Shown one piece after another: positions 1 through 57,294 of a stretch of 57,294 nucleotides of DNA; within the stretch, counting starts at the first letter, position 1, and each line of letters begins with the position of its first letter. Below the pieces are notes generated by a model. That model was not told the DNA's origin, did no database searches, and was given only the letters and a program-made list of their open reading frames with translations. The position numbers were made by a program, and so were the translations under genes. Where the stretch lies: the IMG/VR virus record IMGVR_UViG_3300047457_001216, positions 1 through 57,294 of that record. One strand, written 5' to 3'. This stretch comes from a virus.

Positions 1-59
1 CGGGGATCCCGGCCCACGGCCCCACGGGGATCCCGGCCCACGGCCCCACGGGGATCCCG
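1..59. repeat. 24-bp tandem repeat at window edge
   Basis: A 24-base unit occurs at 1-24 and 25-48, and its first 11 bases recur at 49-59. Each unit carries the perfect palindrome GGGATCCC. The array is cut by the window edge, so the true copy number is unknown and the contig may have ended here because of the repeat. Confidence 0.85.
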
Positions 60-226
60 AAGGGTAGTAAAATTCCCACCATAGCGCCAAACGCCCCAGG
101 ATCGCTCAGGATTGCTTCCGTCATCCGTACGGGTAAAGTATCGGATTTTAGATCGGATCGAGTCCTGCGCAATTCAGCCTAAAATCAAATGTTCACTACT
201 GCACAGTTCGATATTTGGCATGATAT

Positions 227-255
227 TTGCTGGCCAGGAATTCTGGCGATAGGAT
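227..255 (+). promoter_or_regulatory. Putative sigma70-like promoter of the left arm
   Basis: TTGCTG (227-232) and TAGGAT (250-255) are separated by exactly 17 bases, and the first gene starts at 334. The same -10 hexamer at the same spacing, within the shared string CGATAGGAT, recurs at 41859-41887. That supports a real promoter class despite the imperfect hexamers. The rest of 60-333 holds nothing I recognise. Confidence 0.45.
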
Positions 256-333
256 GATTGACACCGCCACCAATGGCCGATACAGTCTGTACTCCGGTTA
301 CTTTTCATTCACGCAAACGACGGAAGCGGAAAC

Positions 334-591
334 ATGCTGACACGATCCCAGATCGAAGACGTAGCAGGGAGCCTGGAAGCGAACGAACCAGACTACGACG
401 CGAAAACGGTAGATATCTCATTCTATTTGTACGTGCAAAGCATCCAGGACACCCCGGAACACGTTAACCAGGTCAGAGCATACTTGACGGGTGACGTTGA
501 CCCATTCCAGCAGATAGCAGCGCTCGAAACCGAGATTTCCCGACTGCAGGCGGAACTGTTCCGGCTGCGGATGAATCTCGCGAACAATTGA
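334..591 (+). CDS. Hypothetical small protein, 85 aa
   Basis: Acidic 85-residue protein of unknown function. The last 30 residues (about 56-82) have heptad-like spacing of I/L (ALETEISRLQAELFRLRMNL), which predicts a short coiled coil and perhaps oligomerisation. The ATG follows a purine-rich GGAAGCGGAAAC stretch. It is the first gene of the hairpin-separated left-arm operon, which ends with a gp88-like gene. No family recognised. Confidence 0.6.
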   Translation: MLTRSQIEDVAGSLEANEPDYDAKTVDISFYLYVQSIQDTPEHVNQVRAYLTGDVDPFQQIAALETEISRLQAELFRLRMNLANN

Positions 592-603
592 CACCACACC
601 ACC

Positions 604-648
604 CCCCCCCGATTGTTTCGGGGGGGATTCTTCAACCCCGAACGGAGG
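604..648 (+). promoter_or_regulatory. GC hairpin plus conserved leader/SD cassette
   Basis: A perfect 9-bp stem (604-612 with 618-626) closes the loop TTGTT. It is followed by TTCAACCCCGAACGGAGG (631-648), whose GGAGG is the Shine-Dalgarno sequence for the GTG start at 655. There is no long U tract, so it is not a classical terminator. The loop and leader recur elsewhere in both arms. Confidence 0.6.
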
Positions 649-654
649 AAACCA

Positions 655-903
655 GTGAACAGAAGACAGCTCGAAGAACAGGTAGCGTCAGTGTGGGCGA
701 GAAAAGTTCACCCGTCGGCGCAGCTTTTCCGGTGGTTGCCGATCGGCAGCCGGTTCCGTTTCGTCACAGCTGACGAGAGCAACCCCGGGAATTACGTATT
801 CACGATTCCCACGTACACGAAGACGGCCAGCGGATGGTACGAAACGCTCAGCGGACAGAAGCTCCGGACTTCCCCGCTCGCAGCGGTTCTGCCGATTCAA
901 TGA
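655..903 (+). CDS. Hypothetical small protein, 82 aa
   Basis: Basic N-terminus (NRRQLEEQVASVWARK) followed by a probable small beta domain with aromatic residues (FRWLPIGSRFRFV, YVFTIPTYTKTASGWY). The GTG start at 655 is chosen because GGAGG lies 7 bases upstream. An upstream ATG at 613 lies inside the hairpin stem and is unlikely. Function unknown. It is flanked on both sides by hairpins with the identical loop TTGTT. Confidence 0.55.
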   Translation: MNRRQLEEQVASVWARKVHPSAQLFRWLPIGSRFRFVTADESNPGNYVFTIPTYTKTASGWYETLSGQKLRTSPLAAVLPIQ

Positions 904-913
904 AAGCACCACA

Positions 914-938
914 GCGCCCCCGATTGTTTCGGGGGCGC
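914..938 (+). promoter_or_regulatory. Intergenic GC hairpin
   Basis: A perfect 10-bp inverted repeat (914-923 with 929-938) has loop TTGTT and the closing GA/TC pairs also seen at 604-626. Only CAT follows, so a U tract is absent. It could be a weak terminator, an mRNA-stabilising element or a processing site. Confidence 0.55.
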
Positions 939-945
939 ATTCCCC

Positions 946-975
946 GGAATTCAGGGTAGAGTTATCCTGAATTCC
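946..975. promoter_or_regulatory. Perfect 10-bp dyad, possible operator or hairpin
   Basis: GGAATTCAGG at 946-955 is exactly inverted at 966-975, with a 10-base spacer. It lies 27 bases before the start of the next gene. The symmetry and the 20-base centre-to-centre distance fit either a dimeric protein site or an mRNA hairpin. Confidence 0.5.
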
Positions 976-1002
976 ACAAACCTAGTTGAGAGGATTCGAC
1001 GA

Positions 1003-1401
1003 ATGAGCACAGCACTTACAGCAGCCCAGCACCAGAAGCACGCCCGCGCTATTGTGAAACACACTATCGCGGTCAGGGAGCTTGCAACGCAGCTCGCAGA
1101 AGCGGAAGCAGCGCAGCAGGCTGCCGAAGAAACCGCACGCGCCGCCGGTTTCCATTCTGGTGTGGTGGAATACAAGGGTACATCGTATTCCATCGCCACC
1201 ACCAGCACCCAGAAGTTCAGCCTCAGCGCAGACGATGCCGACCTGGTGAAGTTTGCCCGCGCCCACGGACTGAAGACCACCGCGCCCAAACCGGAGAGCT
1301 GCAGTTCTGCAACAATCCGCGCCGCAGCGCTCAAAGGAATCGACGTCAGCCAGGTGGCAGACATCACGACTCAGGAAGTTTACGCCGTTTCCGTTCACTG
1401 A
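1003..1401 (+). CDS. Hypothetical protein, 132 aa
   Basis: The first 50 residues are Ala/Glu/Gln-rich and helical (about residues 6-48). A small domain follows with VVEYKGTSYSIATTSTQKFS and a C-terminal helix. The ATG has a good GAGAGGA ribosome site. No family recognised and no catalytic motif visible. It is the third gene of the left arm, preceded by a perfect dyad and followed by another GC hairpin. Confidence 0.6.
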   Translation: MSTALTAAQHQKHARAIVKHTIAVRELATQLAEAEAAQQAAEETARAAGFHSGVVEYKGTSYSIATTSTQKFSLSADDADLVKFARAHGLKTTAPKPESCSSATIRAAALKGIDVSQVADITTQEVYAVSVH

Positions 1402-1410
1402 AGACCCGAA

Positions 1411-1463
1411 GGCCGGCCGGATTGTCCGGCCGGCCGTTTCATCATCAACCCCCCAACAGGGAG
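1411..1463 (+). promoter_or_regulatory. GC hairpin plus conserved leader/SD cassette
   Basis: An 11-bp perfect stem (1411-1421 with 1425-1435) has a TTG loop. It is followed by TCATCATCAACCCCCCAACA and GGGAG, the Shine-Dalgarno site of the gene at 1474. The CAACCCC...CNGGGAG leader matches those at 631, 2138 and the right-arm genes. Confidence 0.6.
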
Positions 1464-1473
1464 CCGAAGACCA

Positions 1474-2082
1474 ATGACGACCGAAACCACCACCACAACC
1501 CCGGAAACCGAGCCGGAGAAACTCGGCACCATGAATCGCAGGGCGCAGAAATTCGCGCGGCTCGAAGACTGGAAACCCACCACGATTGAGCGCCTGGTAG
1601 CGTCAGATATCGCCAGCAAACACACCCGCGCAGCCGACCAGCTGCGCGGGGGAGCTGATGCAGGCTGGCTGGTGGCCCCGCACTACGCAATCGCTGAGGG
1701 TAGCTGGGATCGGTACAGCCTGGGGAAACTCATGGCTGGTGACCGATTGGACGCGGGGAAGATGATTGACTGGCTGCGCGATTGTCTCACCGAAGGCCAG
1801 ACCGAAGGTCAGGATGTTTTGATCGGGCTTCCAACCATCGACTGGACAGCAGATGCAGACACCGTGCACAACGGAGCATTCTACACCACGTTCAGCGGTC
1901 AGTTTCTTGTCCCGATTCTGGACTTGGACGGGCAGCATATCCTGAATGTAAACGCCCGACGGTTCTTGACCCTGGACAAGCACATTCGGAACTGCACAGG
2001 ATACCGCGCAACGGCCGACAAGCTTTATTGGATGCAGGGCGAAAGCGCCGTCGCCGTCCTAATGTCAGTCGGTGAAGTCTGA
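1474..2082 (+). CDS. Hypothetical protein, 202 aa
   Basis: Thr/Glu-rich N-terminus (residues 1-16), then a mixed alpha/beta domain. Notable segments are WLVAPHYAIAEGSWDRYSLG (about 65-84), QFLVPILDLDGQHILNV and the basic YRATADKLYWM near the C-terminus. The function is not recognised. The ATG follows the conserved leader with GGGAG. It is followed by a hairpin cassette and the gp88-like gene, so the two are probably co-transcribed. Confidence 0.6.
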   Translation: MTTETTTTTPETEPEKLGTMNRRAQKFARLEDWKPTTIERLVASDIASKHTRAADQLRGGADAGWLVAPHYAIAEGSWDRYSLGKLMAGDRLDAGKMIDWLRDCLTEGQTEGQDVLIGLPTIDWTADADTVHNGAFYTTFSGQFLVPILDLDGQHILNVNARRFLTLDKHIRNCTGYRATADKLYWMQGESAVAVLMSVGEV

Positions 2083-2107
2083 CAGACAGGAACCAACACC
2101 GAACCCA

Positions 2108-2158
2108 GGGGCGCCCAGTGTTGGGCGCCCCGTTTCATTCCACCCCGAACAGGGAGCC
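2108..2158 (+). promoter_or_regulatory. GC hairpin plus conserved leader/SD cassette
   Basis: A perfect 10-bp stem (2108-2117 with 2122-2131) has loop GTGT. It is followed by CGTTTCATTCCACCCCGAAC and AGGGAG, the Shine-Dalgarno site of the gene at 2162. CGTTTCATT or CGTTTCATC after the stem is shared with the cassette at 1411. Confidence 0.6.
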
Positions 2159-2161
2159 ATC

Positions 2162-2995
2162 ATGCTACTACTCAGTCCCCCATCGTCGAACGTGAAACTA
2201 TCCAAGACACAAGCAAACACTCAGACCCTGGTTTACGGGCTTTCACTGGCAGCGCATAGCCTCGCAGCGCAGGAGGTTAAACGGCGCACCGGTGAATCCG
2301 GGTTTAGCACGTGCCCAGACTCCACGCCCGGTTGCCGCGCCGCTTGCTGCGTCAGCGCATCAGCACAAGGCCAGCTCAATTCAGTCCAGGAATCCCGGAA
2401 CCGCAAAACGGTATTCCTACAGACACACCGCCAGGAGTTTGTTCGCATCCTGAAGTCTGAAATTCAGCAGCAGATCGACAAGGCAGCATACCACGGCTAC
2501 CAGGTCCGTTTCCGTTTGAACGTTGACAGCTCGATTCCCTGGCATGCCGAGGAATACGGACAGATTCCCCAGTCATTCCCGGAGCAGCTTTTCTACGACT
2601 ACCACCCACTGCGGGCATTGAACAGCCGGAAGCACTGGAAACTTTCCGACATTCCCAGCAATCTGCGGATTTGTTGGAGCCGGAAAGAGTCTGACAGCTG
2701 GCATGCAGTCGAAAGCGCCATTGCGGACCTGCAGTCCGTCGCAGTCGTTTTCCACGATGATCAGCCCCACCGATCAGGGCGAGGAGCCTATGCGCAACAA
2801 CTGCCCCGCTTCGTGGAGTTGCCGAGCTTAGGGCGCTGGCCCGTAGTCGATGGCGACCATAGCGACGACCGGACCGAAGACCCGCGCGGATTGTTGATAG
2901 GACTTCGCCTCAAATCCCGCTCAGAGCAGATCAGATCGGCAGCAATCCGAACCGGTTTCAGCGTTCCGACGTCGGCGGCCCCCTGCATTCTCTGA
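2162..2995 (+). CDS. gp88/DUF7227-like phage protein, 277 aa
   Basis: This resembles the gp88-like family of phage and plasmid proteins. It has an N-terminal NVKLSKTQANTQTLVYGLSL followed by a Cys cluster (C51, C58, C62, C63), and a C-terminal block with VVDGDHSDDRTEDPRG, GLRLKSR and TGFSVP. That block is the typical ending in which an Asp-rich motif precedes a statement-like conserved tail. Molecular function is not established. The start at 2162 is chosen because the conserved leader with GGGAG lies just upstream, and upstream codons lie inside the hairpin. Family assignment is from remembered motif layout. Confidence 0.65.
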   Translation: MLLLSPPSSNVKLSKTQANTQTLVYGLSLAAHSLAAQEVKRRTGESGFSTCPDSTPGCRAACCVSASAQGQLNSVQESRNRKTVFLQTHRQEFVRILKSEIQQQIDKAAYHGYQVRFRLNVDSSIPWHAEEYGQIPQSFPEQLFYDYHPLRALNSRKHWKLSDIPSNLRICWSRKESDSWHAVESAIADLQSVAVVFHDDQPHRSGRGAYAQQLPRFVELPSLGRWPVVDGDHSDDRTEDPRGLLIGLRLKSRSEQIRSAAIRTGFSVPTSAAPCIL

Positions 2996-3008
2996 CATCA
3001 CGAAGCAC

Positions 3009-3041
3009 GCCCCGCAGCTTTCACGGCTGCGGGGCTCTTTT
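3009..3041 (+). terminator. Rho-independent terminator of the left arm
   Basis: GCCCCGCAGC (3009-3018) pairs with GCTGCGGGGC (3026-3035) in a 10-bp GC-rich stem with a 7-base loop, followed by TCTTTT. It closes the left-arm operon. Confidence 0.85.
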
Positions 3042-3077: not shown

Positions 3078-3427
3078 ATCGGCATCGGCCGTCATGAGCT
3101 CCGGATGCCATCGGCATCGGCCGTCATGAGCTCCGGATGCCATCGGCATCGGCCGTCATGAGCTCCGGATGCCATCAGCATCGGCCGTCATGAGCTCCGG
3201 ATGCCATCGGCATCGGCCGTCATGAGCTCCGGATGCCATCGGCATCGGCCGTCATGAGCTCCGGATGCCATCGGCATCGGCCGTCATGAGCTCCGGATGC
3301 CACGGCATCGGCCGTCAGGAGCTCCGGATGCCACGGCATCGGCCGTCAGGAGCTCCGGATGCCATCGGCATCGGCCGTCATGAGCTCCGGATGCCATCGG
3401 CATCGGCCGTCATGAGCTCCGGATGCC
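3078..3427. repeat. Eleven tandem copies of a 32-bp repeat
   Basis: Eleven head-to-tail copies begin at 3078, 3110, 3142, 3174, 3206, 3238, 3270, 3302, 3333, 3364 and 3396. Copies 8 and 9 are 31 bases and share an ATG-to-AGG change, and copy 4 has CAG for CGG. Each unit starts with GGCATC and ends with GATGCC, and contains TCATGA and GAGCTC palindromes. Hairpins can form within a unit, or across a junction with a 3-base loop. There are no spacers and no credible gene. Iteron-like replication origin, satellite or protein-binding array are all possible. Confidence 0.9.
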
Positions 3428-3511
3428 ACGCGCAACCCCGCCGGAAATATCCCAGGCGACGCGGGATACTTTACCCCCTCCCCCGTAGGATCAAAAAAAC
3501 AAAAAACAATG

Positions 3512-49989: not shown

Positions 49990-50312
49990 AGTTGACAATC
50001 GAGAAACGCGGATATATGCCGGTCCAGTGCGACAAGCCGCTGCCGTGCCCTTTCTGCGGGAGTGAACCGACACTATCACAGCTCGCACACACCACGACCT
50101 CACGCAGAGTCGGTAAAAAATGGGAGACCGTGCGAATCTGCATAGCGTATTCCTCGCAGACCCTGCAGGCTGATACGTTCAAGTTCAGCTGTGACAACTG
50201 CAAAGCCACGACCGGCAGATACCACGACACCGCGCAGGGCGCTGTCGAAGCCTGGAACACACGCTACACACCACCAGCTACCGATCAACCCCAGCAGGAA
50301 CAGAACCAGTGA
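49986..50312 (+). CDS. Lar-like restriction alleviation zinc-ribbon protein, 108 aa
   Basis: Lar-type layout: LPCPFCGSEPTL near residue 20, a second pair FSCDNCKATTG about 45 residues on, and the ending AVEAWNTRY with a WN-R motif. Lar-like proteins carry four Cys in two ribbons and are small; Lar itself modulates type I restriction. Whether this one has that activity is not known. GTG 49986 overlaps the previous stop. Confidence 0.65.
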   Translation: MKLTIEKRGYMPVQCDKPLPCPFCGSEPTLSQLAHTTTSRRVGKKWETVRICIAYSSQTLQADTFKFSCDNCKATTGRYHDTAQGAVEAWNTRYTPPATDQPQQEQNQ

Positions 50313-51673: not shown

Positions 51674-53920
51674 ATGATCAACGACGAACGATGGAGCGTG
51701 GTTATCGGCTGTGCCGGTGCCGGGAAAACGTCCTACGCCATGGATCTGCTCGAACAGGCCCTCAGAAATGGCCTCCAATGGCACCAGATCGGATTCTCCA
51801 GCTTCTCCCGGGCCGCCTGCCAAGAGGCCGTCAGAAGGGCAGCAAAATTGTGCGGAGAGTCAGAAGAACGATTGACAAGTCATGGGTGGTTCAGGACAAT
51901 CCACGCAGCGGCCCTGAGAGCTGTCGGAGGCGCTGGGCGAATCATCGACCCAGACTCGAAGTCAGGCCGCGAATTCTACGCTGATATCAAACTCCCACGC
52001 GGAGGCGATCGCGGTACGCTCGGCGAATCTGTCGCCCAAGTGCTCGAACGCTGGGATCTCGCCAGGCAAATGCTCTGGCCTCTGGTCGACAGGCCCCGTT
52101 TCACAGGCCTCCCAGACGGATCACCCGGATCACCCGGATCACCCGGATCACCCGATTCCCACCCGATTCCCAGGGGGGGTGCTACCATTTCTACGTGTGA
52201 AAACACTGGGTTTTCAGAAAGATTCCCACCCCCCTTTATGTATATAGGAGATTTTTTCAGTGCTATTAGTCCGCGTCGTTCGCGAAATTGGGTGCACCCT
52301 GCTACCGATTGTGATAAGTCCCTATATAGTAACAGGTTACACGCTCCCACCCCCCCCTGTGCCGGGTGGGAGTGGTGGGAGCGGGTGGGAGCGGGAAACA
52401 TAGACGGACGTTCACTGCACTGGTGTTCAGGTGTGGCAAATACTAACTGGGCGGACGAGATTGCCCAGAAGTTCGAAGACGCCAAACGACTTCACAACAG
52501 ATTGGACTTCACTGACGTCCTCATGAGATTCTGCGGACTGTCGGTCGATACCAACAATCGACTCACACTCACGACACCAGAAGGCACCGACCCCGACGAA
52601 TGCTCACTCTGGTTCCTCGACGAAGCCCAAGACTGTAGCCCCCTCCTCTGGATGACCGCCGATCGACTCACGACCAACGCCGCCGAAGTCGTCGCACTCG
52701 GAGACCCCTACCAAGCCGTATACGGCTTTCTGGGGGCCGCCCCTGAGTTTCTCATCGGATTGGCCGACGGATCGCGTCAGAGGGCCGCTGAGACCGTTCT
52801 GAGACGGTCGTGGAGAAATCCTCAGTGCGTGATCGACTGGGCCGAAGCAATTTTATTGGAAGATCCGGAGTATGTCACTCGCCAACCGTTCAGCGAACAC
52901 GACGACGGATCCGTCGGGATCGTCGAATGGGGGAACTGGATCCGGAAAATCGACACGCTCCCCGAAGTCGACACCATGATCCTCGGACGGACATGGTTCT
53001 CCCTCGCAGATGTCATCAAATCGCTCGACTCCCACGGCATACCATGGGCCTCCTGCGGCGAGAAAATGGCCAGCAAATGGGATGCACCCGTCCAACTCGC
53101 CAACGTCCTCACACTCCGAGAACTGCAGGCAGGACTCCCCATCAGCGAGGTCGACTACCGGCGACTCACCGAACACTACCCACAGAAACATCCAGAGCAT
53201 GGCGAATTCTTCACCAGAGGAGCAAAGGCCAAATGGAAGAAGGCCGCCTGCTCCGCCGAACCACAGACCACACTCGACAATCTCGGCTCATGGGACGCTA
53301 CACCCGCCTTCATCCACTACATCCAAGCAGGACTCTGGAAGGCCGACAAGTTCGCCATCATCGACTACGCCATTACCCGGTGGGGAATTGACGCTGTCCG
53401 GCACCCTCGGATAAAACTCGGCACCTGTCATTCCGTCAAAGGACTGGAGGCCGATGTCGTTTACTGTGTCGCAACGTCGACAGGAAAAGCCGAAAACGCC
53501 GATCCCGCCGAGGAACGGAACCTGAAATATGTCGCCATCACCCGCGCTCGACACGACTACAGACTCGTTTACCGAAACTCCGATCTCGCACAAAGCCGGC
53601 CGCAGTTCTGGTGTGCCCCCGAAAAGAAAAGCCTCACCCCAGAGCACATCGACACCGACCAGCAGTTCCTCGAAGCTCGCAGGAAAAAAGCCGAAGTTAG
53701 AGAAACAGATCCAATCCCAGATCATAGCCTACCTGGAGAAGATGGGTATTTGGTGTGTGAAGGTCCATCAGACTGGATTGAGTCGGAACGGGATCCCGGA
53801 CCTGATCTGCTGCCACAACGGGAGACTGATCGCGATGGAGGTCAAAAGGCCGGGCGAGACTCAGACACCACTCCAGAAATTCGAACAGGAGAAGATCAGG
53901 AAGAGTGGTGGAGTCTGTGA
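51674..53920 (+). CDS. UvrD/Rep-type SF1 helicase with unusual insertion, 748 aa
   Basis: Motif I IGCAGAGKTS (residues 11-20), motif II LWFLDEAQD (D316-D320), motif III GDPYQAVYGF (343 on), motif IV RSWRNP, motif V CHSVKGLE (585-592), motif VI ITRARHDY (622-629). All are present. Residues about 149-259 are an insertion of unlike composition (Pro/Gly/Ser repeats, then GFSERFPPPFMYIGDFFSAI). After about 53690 the frame continues to a stop at 53920 with sequence antagonistic to the VRR-NUC frame, so the true C-terminus probably changes frame there. Confidence 0.85.
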   Translation: MINDERWSVVIGCAGAGKTSYAMDLLEQALRNGLQWHQIGFSSFSRAACQEAVRRAAKLCGESEERLTSHGWFRTIHAAALRAVGGAGRIIDPDSKSGREFYADIKLPRGGDRGTLGESVAQVLERWDLARQMLWPLVDRPRFTGLPDGSPGSPGSPGSPDSHPIPRGGATISTCENTGFSERFPPPFMYIGDFFSAISPRRSRNWVHPATDCDKSLYSNRLHAPTPPCAGWEWWERVGAGNIDGRSLHWCSGVANTNWADEIAQKFEDAKRLHNRLDFTDVLMRFCGLSVDTNNRLTLTTPEGTDPDECSLWFLDEAQDCSPLLWMTADRLTTNAAEVVALGDPYQAVYGFLGAAPEFLIGLADGSRQRAAETVLRRSWRNPQCVIDWAEAILLEDPEYVTRQPFSEHDDGSVGIVEWGNWIRKIDTLPEVDTMILGRTWFSLADVIKSLDSHGIPWASCGEKMASKWDAPVQLANVLTLRELQAGLPISEVDYRRLTEHYPQKHPEHGEFFTRGAKAKWKKAACSAEPQTTLDNLGSWDATPAFIHYIQAGLWKADKFAIIDYAITRWGIDAVRHPRIKLGTCHSVKGLEADVVYCVATSTGKAENADPAEERNLKYVAITRARHDYRLVYRNSDLAQSRPQFWCAPEKKSLTPEHIDTDQQFLEARRKKAEVRETDPIPDHSLPGEDGYLVCEGPSDWIESERDPGPDLLPQRETDRDGGQKAGRDSDTTPEIRTGEDQEEWWSL
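52118..52400. other. Structured in-frame insertion within the helicase gene
   Basis: Starts with four 9-bp GGATCACCC repeats (52118-52153). Inverted repeats follow: GAAAAC/GTTTTC (52199-52204, 52210-52215), GGGTGCACCC (52290-52299), GTAACAGGTTAC (52329-52340), and CTCCCACCC (52344-52352) with GGGTGGGAG (52364-52372). Six GGG runs lie within 52364-52395 (G-quadruplex potential). It stays open in the helicase frame. AT-rich parts and codon use differ from the gene. Not an intein by motif. Structured RNA or mobile insertion are possible. Confidence 0.7.
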
Positions 53921-53972
53921 AGTCGTCACATCACTCGAAGACGTGCTGCTGCTGCTGCGGGGGGGTGCCTAA
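53529..53972 (+). CDS. VRR-NUC nuclease domain, probably fused to helicase by a frame change
   Basis: The VRR-NUC domain is clear: QSQIIAYLEKMGIWCVKVHQ, NGIPDLI, IAMEVKRPGETQTPLQKFEQ. These are the catalytic D, E-V-K and Q. The frame is open from 53529, but codons before about 53690 look like a shadow of the helicase, and no good ribosome site is seen. An ATG at 53529 or GTG at 53613 is possible. More likely the domain is joined to the helicase. VRR-NUC with helicase is a known pairing in phages. Stop at 53972. Confidence 0.65.
   Translation: MSPSPALDTTTDSFTETPISHKAGRSSGVPPKRKASPQSTSTPTSSSSKLAGKKPKLEKQIQSQIIAYLEKMGIWCVKVHQTGLSRNGIPDLICCHNGRLIAMEVKRPGETQTPLQKFEQEKIRKSGGVCEVVTSLEDVLLLLRGGA
53684..53690 (+). 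other. A6 slippery run at helicase/VRR-NUC frame change
   Basis: AAAAAAG (53684-53690) falls in the helicase codons AAA AAA GCC. A +1 slip, or one A fewer, joins ARRKK to PKLEKQIQSQ of the nuclease. Ribosomal +1 slippage, transcriptional slippage at A6, or a sequence error would each explain it. Confidence 0.5.
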
Positions 53973-53999
53973 CGTGCTGCTGCTGCTGCTGCCGGGGGG
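53946..53999. repeat. Two tandem (CTG)n-G7/8 elements
   Basis: (CTG)4 (53946-53957) followed by C and a G run, then TGCCTAACG and (CTG)5 (53977-53991) followed by CC and a G run. The second G run is part of GGGGGGGGAG, the ribosome site of the next gene. Similar (CTG)4-CCGGA-G6 elements are at 54818, 55271 and 55560, and (CTG)4 at 57101. Confidence 0.75.
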
Positions 54000-54008
54000 G
54001 GAGACCGA

Positions 54009-54368
54009 ATGACCAGTCGCGACGATGTCACACTCGCTCGACGCTCGCTCAAATGGCCGGTGCCGGACCGGCTCAGGCAGGCCGCCGTCGAGATGCTCTG
54101 GGAGGCCATCGAAAACCCAGACGTTCACGTCCGCACCCGCATCGAAGCCGCTCGCACCGCCCTGCAGATGGACGCCCTGAACCTGCAGATCAGCATGGCA
54201 GAGAACGAAACACGGCCGGCGGCAAATGCCCCGGCCGTGATCTACATCCTGCCGCCCAACGGGTCAGAAGCCCCGGAGCCACCCCACGACGCTCCCCCGC
54301 TGATCGAGGCCGAGGGTGTTGTACCGCCCACCGACGGGGGCCTTGGAGATACACCAGCGGATCTCTGA
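54009..54368 (+). CDS. Hypothetical protein, 119 aa
   Basis: Helical N-terminal half (LRQAAVEMLWEAIENPDVHV, RIEAARTALQMDALNLQ) and a Pro/Glu-rich C-terminal half (GSEAPEPPHDAPPLIEAEGV). ATG 54009 follows a G8-AG ribosome site. The layout resembles small proteins near terminase genes in other phages, but this is not secure. Its 3' end overlaps the convergent gene by 105 bases. Confidence 0.5.
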   Translation: MTSRDDVTLARRSLKWPVPDRLRQAAVEMLWEAIENPDVHVRTRIEAARTALQMDALNLQISMAENETRPAANAPAVIYILPPNGSEAPEPPHDAPPLIEAEGVVPPTDGGLGDTPADL

Positions 54369-54776
54369 GCGATACCCCAGTTCATGCACCGCCTGCCATG
54401 CGCGCAACGGCACCACAAAGCCGCCATCCCGCAACTGAGCCGTCCCCAGCCGCTCGCTCTGGTACCAGTTGATTTCCGGGTGCTCCAGATGCACCATCCG
54501 CTCAACATGATTGATCTGATGGTCCATCCGCACAGACGGCAGATTGGTCACATAGCCTGCAGGATCCAGCAGACCCTCCACAAACTCCTCCAGCCGGCTG
54601 AAGTCCTGCGCTGCAGGCAGAGACACAGGCCACGCATTCTGCTTCCGGACCGCCACAAACGTCCGACAGTCCGTCAGGATCTGCCGCCGGTTATACAGAC
54701 CCACCGCCTGCTTCGAGTTGTTCGCCCGCCGCAGGATGTCACACACGCGGTCATACTCAGAGACGACTTTTGCCAC
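54264..54776 (-). CDS. Hypothetical protein of the right arm, 170 aa
   Basis: Helical start (VAKVVSEYDRVCDILRRANN) and a mixed C-terminal domain with VPLRAWQAVHELGYRSEIRW. GTG 54776 is chosen because GGAG lies 8 bases upstream in the conserved leader, as in the 55502 gene, with which it shares the string GTGTACTGTGGCAAA. It is the last gene of the right-arm operon. Convergent overlap with 54009-54368. Confidence 0.55.
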   Translation of the reverse strand: MAKVVSEYDRVCDILRRANNSKQAVGLYNRRQILTDCRTFVAVRKQNAWPVSLPAAQDFSRLEEFVEGLLDPAGYVTNLPSVRMDHQINHVERMVHLEHPEINWYQSERLGTAQLRDGGFVVPLRAWQAVHELGYRSEIRWCISKAPVGGRYNTLGLDQRGSVVGWLRGF

Positions 54777-54840
54777 AGTACACACTCCAGAACAAAGGGT
54801 TGAAAGAAATCCCCCGGCTGCTGCTGCTGCCGGAGGGGGG
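54777..54840 (-). promoter_or_regulatory. Right-arm leader cassette with (CTG)4 hairpin
   Basis: On the minus strand: the leader TTCAACCCTTTGTTCTGGAG (54785-54804) before GTG 54776. Upstream, (CTG)4 at 54818-54829 lies between CCGG arms that pair (54814-54817 with 54830-54833) and extends to C/G runs. Immediately after the stop of the gene at 54841. Confidence 0.6.
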
Positions 54841-55215
54841 TCAGTATTCGCCGGGCAACATCACGACAGCATGTTGCTGCTGCCAGACCTGAAATAACTT
54901 CAGGGTCTTATCCTCAGACACCTGCAGGTGGGTGAACAGGTCAGACCACGGGACTTCCTGAGTGATCAGCACCGTTTCATTCCCGTCCGTCGCCTGCACA
55001 GTCACGCCGCTGCCCCTCGGTGTGATGTGCCACGACACAAACTCACGCCGCATCAGTTCGCCGGCATACGACGCAATCAGGTCACCGAGCCAGTAGCAGT
55101 GACACTCCCGCATCAGGTACATCAGGCCTTCAGTGCCCACGTACCGCCGGTTTACGCTGAACCGCTCGAAGGTCTCAGAACCGCTGAACTGCTGCAGGTC
55201 AAACATCGAAATCAT
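54841..55215 (-). CDS. DUF6876 family protein, 124 aa
   Basis: Matches DUF6876 along its length: QQFSGSETFERFSVNRRYVG, EGLMYLMRECHCYWLGDLIA, EFVSWHI, DGNETVLITQEVPWSDLF, and the C-terminal AVVMLPGEY. The family is of unknown function. The start at 55215 is chosen for GGAG at 9-base spacing; an ATG at 55221 would leave only 3 bases. Confidence 0.8.
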   Translation of the reverse strand: MISMFDLQQFSGSETFERFSVNRRYVGTEGLMYLMRECHCYWLGDLIASYAGELMRREFVSWHITPRGSGVTVQATDGNETVLITQEVPWSDLFTHLQVSEDKTLKLFQVWQQQHAVVMLPGEY

Positions 55216-55295
55216 CGCCATCGTCTCCAGAAAAGGGTTACCACAAGGGGCCCGGGGCACACGCCCCGGGCTGCTGCTGCTGCCGGACGGGGGGG
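55216..55295 (-). promoter_or_regulatory. Right-arm leader cassette with GC hairpin
   Basis: GCCCGGGGC (55250-55258) pairs with GCCCCGGGC (55263-55271), loop ACAC, flanked by (CTG)4 and CCGGAC-G7 (55271-55292). The minus-strand leader GGTAACCCTTTTCTGGAG lies between the hairpin and the start. The same hairpin recurs at 55538 and 56367. Confidence 0.65.
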
Positions 55296-55502
55296 TCAGG
55301 CCTTCTGTTTCTTCTTCTTCGAGATCAGAGCTTCCCGGCCGATGATCATGCGGGGACTCATCCCCAACGGACCGATGCCGCAGTCCTGCATGTGATCGGG
55401 CTGAGCCTTCGCCCATTTGACCAACTGCTTTCGATCATCTGCAGGCAGATCCGCAAAACGCTTGAACGCATCCGCGAAATGCTCATTCACAGTCTTTGCC
55501 AC
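55296..55502 (-). CDS. Hypothetical basic protein, 68 aa
   Basis: Helical (VNEHFADAFKRFADLPADDR, KQLVKWAKAQPDHMQD) with a Lys-rich end (SKKKKQKA). GTG 55502 is chosen with GGAG 8 bases upstream; the longer frame upstream lies inside the hairpin and CTG element. The start string GTACTGTGGCAAA is the same as in the gene at 54776. Function unknown. Confidence 0.55.
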   Translation of the reverse strand: MAKTVNEHFADAFKRFADLPADDRKQLVKWAKAQPDHMQDCGIGPLGMSPRMIIGREALISKKKKQKA

Positions 55503-55582
55503 AGTACACTCTCCAGAACAAAGGGTTACCACAAGGGGCCCGGGGCACAACGCCCCGGGCTGCTGCTGCTGCCGGAGGGGGG
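55503..55582 (-). promoter_or_regulatory. Right-arm leader cassette with GC hairpin
   Basis: GCCCGGGGC (55538-55546) pairs with GCCCCGGGC (55552-55560), loop ACAAC, with (CTG)4-CCGGA-G6 at 55560-55582 after the upstream gene stop. Leader GTAACCCTTTGTTCTGGAG follows. Almost a copy of the cassette at 55216-55295. Confidence 0.65.
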
Positions 55583-56335
55583 TCAGATCCCCGCCGGAGT
55601 TTCCTGAGGATTCACCACCACCGCTTTGGCCGGCCGACTGAACAGGCCGAAGGTGGGGTCTTTCTCGCTGGGCTCCATCGTCGCAGTGAACCGCACCACG
55701 TCGCCACGCTGCAGGCCACGCTGTTCCTCGACGTCGGCCGCCGGGTAGTCTTCAGTGGCTTCGTAACGCTTCACGTATCGGACGCAATCAATCGACGACG
55801 GCTGCGAACCGAAGTACAGGTTGCCCGTAGCCTGACACTTCACTGTCATCTTCCACGTGCAACCGTAGGCGCTCTCATACGCCTTCAGCTTCAGCACAGT
55901 TGCAACAATCTCGCGACGACCCGGAATGACTGGCTGCAGTTCGGCCCGCTGCTTTTCCTGCAGTTCAGCGAACGTCAGACGGCCGTGCCCCCGCTCTTCG
56001 TTGTGCTTCCGCTGACCCTCCAGTTTCGCCGCCTGCGCTGCTGCTGCTGCTGCCACCCGGTCAGCTCGACGCTTCTCCGCCTGCTGCTGCCGGCTGTACT
56101 CCAGACGGGCCCACTCCAACACCGGCACCCGCTTGTAAGAGTTGCGGGTGTCAGCACCCCAGCAGGCATAACAGACGCCACCGTCCTGCCAGTGGCCAGT
56201 GTTGCCGCTGCCACCACAACGACCGCAGGAGGTGGAGATAAGGACTTTCCCGTCCTGAATAAGGGTGCCGGGACGCTTGCAGAAAATGAACGCATAAGCC
56301 GCCAGAACATCAGGGACGGGGCTGAGCTTCGACAT
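55583..56335 (-). CDS. Zinc-finger, coiled-coil protein, 250 aa
   Basis: A CxxCxGxG-type zinc finger (CGRCGGSGNTGHWQDGGVCY ACWG, residues 37-60), then an Arg/Gln/Ala coiled coil (about 75-120, including an Ala6 run coded by CTG repeats on the plus strand) and a C-terminal beta domain (VKCQATGNLYFG, RGDVVRFTATMEPS) perhaps of OB type. ATG 56335 with GGAG at 7-base spacing. Layout recalls phage DnaJ-like or DNA-processing proteins; function unknown. Confidence 0.6.
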   Translation of the reverse strand: MSKLSPVPDVLAAYAFIFCKRPGTLIQDGKVLISTSCGRCGGSGNTGHWQDGGVCYACWGADTRNSYKRVPVLEWARLEYSRQQQAEKRRADRVAAAAAAQAAKLEGQRKHNEERGHGRLTFAELQEKQRAELQPVIPGRREIVATVLKLKAYESAYGCTWKMTVKCQATGNLYFGSQPSSIDCVRYVKRYEATEDYPAADVEEQRGLQRGDVVRFTATMEPSEKDPTFGLFSRPAKAVVVNPQETPAGI

Positions 56336-56397
56336 TTGAACACTCCAGAACAGGGGTTGAGGAAATGCCCGGGGCACACGCCCCGGGCTGCTGTTGA
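56336..56397 (-). promoter_or_regulatory. Right-arm leader cassette with GC hairpin
   Basis: GCCCGGGGC (56367-56375) pairs with GCCCCGGGC (56380-56388), loop ACAC. Leader CTCAACCCCTGTTCTGGAG follows on the minus strand before ATG 56335. Only CTGCTG remains of the CTG element. Confidence 0.6.
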
Positions 56398-56637
56398 TCA
56401 GTTATTCAGTTCAAGCCAGCAATGCGACAGGGCCCGCATCAGGTCCGTCATGCCAGAACTGGCTGCTGCTGCTGTCGGAGCCGTCAGCACCAACTCATCC
56501 AGCATGAACAGGGCGAGGGTCAGAGCCTCCGGCTCCAGACGGTCGGACATCGTCCGCACAAACTTTGCACGGATCCGGGACTTCTGGCAATCGCTCAAAG
56601 ACGGCTGAACGTCACGAGTTTTCAGGCGGCGAGGCAT
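56398..56637 (-). CDS. Hypothetical helical protein, 79 aa
   Basis: Basic N-terminus (MPRRLKTRDVQPSLSDCQKS), then helical with LEPEALTLALFMLDELVLTA and an Ala-rich part. ATG 56637 follows GCCGGAG at 8-base spacing. Function unknown. It follows the first right-arm gene by only 22 bases. Confidence 0.5.
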   Translation of the reverse strand: MPRRLKTRDVQPSLSDCQKSRIRAKFVRTMSDRLEPEALTLALFMLDELVLTAPTAAAASSGMTDLMRALSHCWLELNN

Positions 56638-56659
56638 CGTAGGGACTCCGGCAAGGGGT

Positions 56660-56929
56660 TCAGCGAGAACGGACATCAACACCATAAACGCCCAACAGGT
56701 GCCGCATTCGCATCTGCGGCGAAACCTGCTCTGCTGCCACCGCTGCGACAGCGAACGCCCCGTGCAACTGCTGCAGGGTGTCGGTAATTCTGTCGATGCT
56801 CGACTCTGCCCCGCCGTCACCACGCAACGATAGGCGGACATTGTGCAGCAGGCAAAACATGTGCAAACGGTTGGAACAATCCTTCTGCATACGCTGCAGA
56901 ACGGCGGGATCAGGCAGCACGACACTCAT
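56660..56929 (-). CDS. First right-arm gene, hypothetical, 89 aa
   Basis: Starts MSVVLPDPAVLQRMQKDCSN, helical, with a run of Ala/Val/His near the C-terminus. ATG 56929 follows ACCGGAG at 8-base spacing; a longer frame upstream lacks a ribosome site. It is the first gene after the strong minus-strand promoter at 56974-57001. Function unknown. Confidence 0.55.
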   Translation of the reverse strand: MSVVLPDPAVLQRMQKDCSNRLHMFCLLHNVRLSLRGDGGAESSIDRITDTLQQLHGAFAVAAVAAEQVSPQMRMRHLLGVYGVDVRSR

Positions 56930-56973
56930 CAGAGCAGCTCCGGTAAAGGGGTTGAAGACTTCCACTGCGGAAG

Positions 56974-57001
56974 ATCATACCAGAGTGTTCGGCGTAGTCA
57001 A
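56974..57001 (-). promoter_or_regulatory. Strong sigma70-like promoter of the right arm
   Basis: On the minus strand TTGACT (57001-56996), 16-base spacer, TGG plus TATGAT (56979-56974), an extended -10. The best promoter in the window. Transcription runs leftward into the six right-arm genes, and the first start codon is about 40 bases downstream of the -10. Confidence 0.75.
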
Positions 57002-57042
57002 CTGCAAACTTTACAGTTTTCTGAAAGATCGTCAAGGGCACG

Positions 57043-57068
57043 AAAAAACCCCGGATTGTGGCCGGGGT
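57043..57068 (-). terminator. Minus-strand terminator upstream of the right-arm promoter
   Basis: ACCCCGG (57048-57054) pairs with CCGGGGT (57062-57068). On the minus strand T6 follows. It would stop leftward transcription from beyond the window's right end before the right-arm promoter. From 57069 to 57294 I see only (CTG)4 at 57101-57112 and no credible gene. Confidence 0.75.
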
Positions 57069-57294
57069 CTTTCCAGTGTATTCTTAGGGTGTGTTCTTTG
57101 CTGCTGCTGCTGATCAGGCGACTTTAACGCCACAGCACGGACTGACAACCCGACTACCGCCACAAAACACCCACGCGCCCCTTCCGCCCGTGGGGGAGGG
57201 GGATCTAGCAACCATTGCTCCGCAGGAATTGAGAGTCTGCGTCCTCGGGCACGTGGTTTGATTCTATGGCGGTGGCTGGGTGTATTGCAAACGG

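Follow-up and report, generated by a model that had tools for sequence, protein, structure and literature searches.

Introduction

A single cluster of mycobacteriophages is known for start-associated repeats, and phage operons can contain intercistronic hairpins as well as weak intrinsic terminators. In cluster K mycobacteriophages the SAS, a fixed 13-mer (GGGATAGGAGCCC) with almost always one orientation, contains the Shine-Dalgarno sequence (SD) and lies a few bases before the starts of some non-structural genes, and it is absent from structural genes (PMC3203893). About half of the SAS have an upstream inverted repeat (ESAS, conserved and imperfect, 17 bp), and the changes among the 17-mers do not support RNA pairing (PMC3203893). 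The role of SAS is thought to be translation initiation, which is unproven (PMC3203893). In phage T4, about 30 mRNAs are repressed by RegA, while RegB cleaves GGAG where translation of early genes initiates (PMC3014915).

Here we analyse a leader in a viral sequence of 57,294 bases (the window, which denotes this whole stretch of DNA). Like the SAS, it is a short SD-bearing repeat found where certain non-structural genes start, with an upstream inverted repeat (about half of the SAS; seven of nine leaders here). However, in a comparison by eye the leader did not match the SAS consensus even with two mismatches allowed, and it consists of AACCC(C), a variable gap and GGAG rather than a fixed 13-mer. 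Whereas SAS, with rare exceptions, keep to one orientation, three of the leaders lie on the plus and six on the minus strand, in two putative operons; and in place of the conserved 17-bp repeats of ESAS the window has variable, fully paired stems of 9-11 bp. Because sequence, strand distribution and nature of the repeat differ, the leader is not an SAS. As far as position shows, it would work like one, and the SAS appears to be the system closest in kind, without the leader being a member.

The resemblance to T4 lies in the marking of many early genes at their translation-initiation regions, with GGAG as the RegB target, but RegA sites are A+U-rich and the element in the window is C-rich. No homologues of RegA or RegB were found among the proteins scanned, and T4 may serve as a model for the joint use of such sites, not as evidence. 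The GC hairpins of the window, located about 10-26 nt behind stop codons and followed by a partly U-rich tail, are comparable with phage intercistronic hairpins and weak intrinsic terminators; their tails are weaker than those of the best terminators in this genome.

Results

The viral sequence and its relatives

The window is one IMG/VR virus record of an uncultured virus that infects bacteria. The contig is classed as linear and end repeats were not found; its first bases lie within a 24-bp tandem repeat (window 1-59), perhaps the point where assembly stopped. Terminase, portal and head genes are located in the core, between a left arm (1-3040) and a right arm (54201-57294). Partial relatives of the window are 95% identical. 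Relatives of the core (L002-L009) have terminases of 64-99% identity, and the arms are absent from them; the contigs start at points that correspond to the stretch from 3.4 kb of the window up to the terminase. The sole relative in the cellular collection is a 4.5-kb contig of a Planctomycetaceae MAG (terminase identity 64%), on which GP88 and a tandem repeat are arranged as they are in the window. Since this single contig is the basis of the assignment, a planctomycete host (Planctomycetaceae) is only tentative. In the window, the tandem repeat is a 32-bp unit present 11 times (3078-3428) downstream of the GP88 gene; contig L063 has, in the same place (1110-1240), another tandem repeat, which differs from it but has units of similar length.

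A leader at nine starts

AACCCC-type leaders had been listed in a preliminary description at starts 655, 1474 and 2162 on the plus strand and 54776, 55215, 55502, 56335, 56637 and 56929 on the minus strand, and we found all nine in place (Table 1). Their consensus is TCAACCC(C), a gap of 3-6 nt, GGAG preceded by C, T or G, and 5-10 nt to the start codon; the 2162 leader reads ACCCC, with the first A missing. The earlier formula for the leader end, CNGGAG or NGGGAG, is corrected to C/T/G-GGAG. The linker carrying AACCC(C) is short and usually G-poor. Given its fairly fixed place beside the SD, the leader sits where a translation element belongs. Outside AACCC and GGAG the arms differ, with GAACA or CAACA ahead of GGAG on the left and T-rich leaders on the right, so that no more than five to six bases argue for a recognition element common to both. 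We considered whether AACCC might pair with the 16S 3' end beside the anti-SD and dropped the idea, the geometry being unsuitable. Gene 1003 has AAACCTAGTTGAGAGGA in place of the AACCCC leader, and gene 334 has neither leader nor hairpin.

Table 1. Leaders, hairpins, terminator and promoters of the two arms, in window coordinates
Feature	Position	Strand	Sequence or structure	Remark
Promoter, sigma-70-like	258..286	+	TTGACA-17-TACAGT	upstream of left arm; from scan
Hairpin	604..626	+	9 bp, loop TTGTT, tail ATTCTTC	strong GC stem
Leader	634..654	+	AACCCCGAACGGAG	upstream of gene 655
Hairpin	914..938	+	10 bp	ahead of gene 1003, without AACCCC leader
Hairpin	about 945-974	+	13 bp	second hairpin ahead of gene 1003
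Hairpin	1411..1435	+	11 bp, tail GTTTCAT	
Leader	1447..1473	+	AACCCCCCAACAGGGAG	upstream of gene 1474
Hairpin	2108..2131	+	10 bp, tail GTTTCATT	found by terminator scan
Leader	2142..2161	+	ACCCCGAACAGGGAG	upstream of gene 2162 (Pfam GP88)
Terminator	3009..3035	+	tail TCTTTTGTTG	after last gene of left arm
Leader	54777..54801	-	AACCCTTTGTTCTGGAG	upstream of gene 54776
Hairpin	54811..54836	-	imperfect	shortened cassette copy, ahead of gene 54776
Leader	55216..55239	-	AACCCTTTTCTGGAG	upstream of gene 55215/55221 (DUF6876)
Hairpin	55250..55271	-	GCCCGGGGC-GTGT-GCCCCGGGC, tail CCCTTGTG	
Leader	55503..55527	-	AACCCTTTGTTCTGGAG	upstream of gene 55502
Hairpin	55538..55560	-	GCCCGGGGC-GTTGT-GCCCCGGGC, tail CCCTTGTG	
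Leader	56336..56358	-	AACCCCTGTTCTGGAG	upstream of gene 56335
Hairpin	56367..56388	-	GCCCGGGGC-GTGT-GCCCCGGGC, tail ATTTCCTC	
Leader	56638..56660	-	AACCCCTTGCCGGAG	gene 56637; starts inside preceding stop codon; no hairpin
Leader	56930..56953	-	AACCCCTTTACCGGAG	upstream of gene 56929, which opens the right arm; terminator-like hairpin absent
Promoter, sigma-70-like	56974..57001	-	TTGACT-16-TATGAT, TG before -10	upstream of right arm; from scan

The leader is restricted to the arms

With the strict pattern AACCC.{3,12}GGAG.{3,14}RTG we obtained two matches in the left arm, six in the right arm and none in the 51-kb core, in agreement with the preliminary claim of one leader shared by both arms on opposite strands. 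Dinucleotide shuffles served as null: shuffled arms gave 0.11 and 0.08 matches (about 0.18 together) and the shuffled whole window 1.43. The excess in the arms corresponds to a Poisson P of about 3×10−11, which is too strong because three or four of the cassettes in the right arm arose by copying among themselves.

A two-block profile, from which each site was left out in turn, was scored on the 3,417 ATG or GTG triplets of the core. The sites reached 13.9-20.0 bits and the core maximum was 12.4-13.1 bits, so that none of the 3,417 core triplets attained the score of any of the nine sites; the specificity proposed earlier thus survived a motif scan elsewhere in the window. When no site was left out of the profile, the scores of the nine starts were 16.5-20.7 bits; among starts that do not share one of their leaders the highest score was 12.5 bits, at 50309, a possible weak tenth site. 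These results support a start-associated translation element that is confined to both arms and lies on both strands.

Promoters and gene spacing

In each arm, the best promoter of the scan precedes the first gene. On the left, two promoter-like sites compare with 1.2 expected by chance, which is weak when taken alone. The leader and hairpin cassettes contained no promoter match. Overlaps of a few bases between adjacent genes are frequent in the core (e.g. 3910, 6293, 14020 and 33184), whereas spacers stand between most genes of the arms, a difference consistent with arm genes that are each translated from a start of their own. From -25 to +3, the mean unpaired probability was 0.54 for ten arm genes and 0.45 for 21 core genes, a small difference in which the core starts came straight from the ORF list, uncurated.

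Hairpins are separable from the leader

Strong GC stems of 9-11 bp lie close behind upstream stop codons (604, 914, 1411, 2108, 56388, 55560 and 55271; first base as read). The preliminary statement that a strong hairpin usually precedes the leader stands for seven of nine sites, with the qualification that the hairpin at 54776 is imperfect; of the two exceptions, the 56637 leader comes directly after the upstream stop codon and the 56929 leader after a promoter. The proposal of a single cassette that includes the hairpin is not supported, as hairpins occur without the leader at 1003 and the leader without a hairpin at 56637 and 56929. Because the two occur separately, the hairpin is better read as a 3' element of the upstream gene. 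Stem sequences vary between sites while pairing stays complete, as expected of RNA hairpins. A mini-hairpin formed by the C-run with the GG in the SD was predicted at few sites only, mostly with two to three pairs, and Rfam gave zero matches in the window.

The hairpins had also been described as lacking U tracts. Their tails do fall short of the longer T runs in the best terminators of this genome, which have the tails TATTTTTTGT (after 12752) and TCTTTTGTTG (after 3035), but the 8-nt tails of seven arm hairpins contain 25 T in 56 positions (45%) against a background of 21% (P 7×10−5). Among the cassette hairpins, that at 2108 alone passed a terminator scan; GC stems are present throughout. 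Since the tails, though U-poor, are U-enriched, the arm hairpins may be leaky terminators.

Duplication within the arms

In the right arm, the spacers ahead of 54776, 55215 and 55502 can be aligned over their whole length between the two coding regions, together with part of the 56335 spacer, and a 19-nt core is common to two left-arm hairpins. Judged by these alignments, the cassettes of the right arm derive in part from one another, and the two arms have just the short leader in common. The idea of a copied cassette is therefore borne out within the right arm and not between the arms. Because of the copying, the nine sites perhaps represent only five independent ones. No signs of mobility were noticed, target-site duplications aside.

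Search for the leader in other phages and in the tentative host family

The core of the close relatives, as far as their contigs cover it, gave no strict leader match and three loose ones, which is at chance level. When viral contigs were searched with proteins of the window, GP88, 1474, 55583-56335 and the helicase were without relatives, DUF6876 gave one weak partial match, and the arm of a related phage was not found in these searches. A scan of viral contigs for AACCCYTTNTTCTGGAG yielded 50 matches, many of them apparently within genes and a few of them true single-gene leaders. Scanning for a hairpin plus AACCC identified 17 unrelated phages, but in none of these did the device recur as it does in the window. 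Hairpin, AACCC, SD and ATG follow each other at single genes of the unrelated phages L107, L112, L115, L034 and L017, so the layout alone is not unique; its repetition across two putative operons is the standout feature. Phages L121 and L111 have repeated leaders of their own (ACACAAGGAG and ACCAACAAGGAGACCAAGATATG, respectively) at more than one gene.

For the tentative host family, 61 genomes were scanned, and each contains TCAACCC-GGAG-ATG about two times on average. TCAACCC was commoner there than one scrambled word of equal composition; as the two words differ in background frequency, we claim no enrichment. Homologues of GP88 and DUF6876 in these genomes lack the leader, except for one DUF6876 gene (L168), which carries TCAACCCTCAAACAAAGGAGACAAACCATG. 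One genome of the family (G057) has 76 matches to the leader pattern, and nearly all of those listed are the dispersed repeat CAACCCCTTGCCGCCGGAGGC.

Discussion

We favour, with modest confidence, a phage-specific start-associated translation-initiation leader that is reused before the small genes of two opposed, probably early operons. Each arm would probably constitute one operon transcribed from a single sigma-70-type promoter near its outer end, and both operons would probably be expressed early. The hairpin behind most stop codons may act as punctuation, by 3'-end protection, partial termination or both, while the AACCC(C) linker and the GGAG SD would allow ribosomes to load on every arm gene independently. 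We infer that the arm genes could share control through the leader; that it is a new class of phage start-associated element, in a virus probably of planctomycetes, at which a phage-encoded, sequence-specific factor reads AACCC at the SD and switches the translation of both early operons together, seems unlikely.

Ordinary compact spacing, in which a weak terminator hairpin, a low-structure linker of C, A and T and an SD were multiplied by local duplication within each arm and AACCC has no dedicated recognition, is conceivable, if on the whole doubtful. It would account for the nearly complete alignment of the right-arm spacers, the 19-nt core of the left hairpins, the U-enriched tails and the same series of elements at single genes of unrelated phages, but it leaves unexplained why arms that differ in hairpins and linkers share AACCC at the same distance from GGAG, and why the leader stands at 56637 and 56929 where hairpins are lacking. 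That nine starts on both strands have in common one element that looks single-stranded and adjoins the SD would also suit a translational operator, at which a phage RNA-binding protein represses the arm mRNAs as RegA does or GGAG is cleaved as by RegB, and the T4 proteins do act on many early mRNAs (PMC3014915). No regulator was identified, however, the arm proteins being without match to RNA-binding families; moreover, GGAG often serves as an SD, RegA sites have a different, A+U-rich composition, and we consider such an operator improbable.

Perfect inverted repeats recur at the cassettes, and the ESAS of cluster K were proposed as protein-binding DNA sites (PMC3203893). An operator or promoter at the DNA level, repeated for each gene, is nevertheless very improbable, as the cassettes gave zero promoter matches, the stems vary by site and the leader is bound in position to SD and start codon. 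Hardly credible is a general translation leader of the host: the DUF6876 gene with TCAACCCTCAAACAAAGGAGACAAACCATG speaks for it, but about two matches per genome in the 61 host-family genomes and the absence of the leader from the phage core genes speak against it.

If the start-associated leader is accepted, this second case, unrelated in sequence to the first and in a virus whose host probably belongs to another phylum, would suggest that marking the ribosome-binding sites of early genes is a recurrent phage strategy. The sharp contrast between arms and core makes such marking testable with reporters.

Further repeats were seen in the window. GC-skewed short repeats at 52120-52400 (CGGATCACC four times and CGGGTGGGAG three times) sit in the ORF of a UvrD-like helicase (51674-53920), between its Pfam matches, and look like an in-frame insert in this gene. 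Runs of CAG/CTG occur in coding and intergenic DNA of the right arm region (53935-56040).
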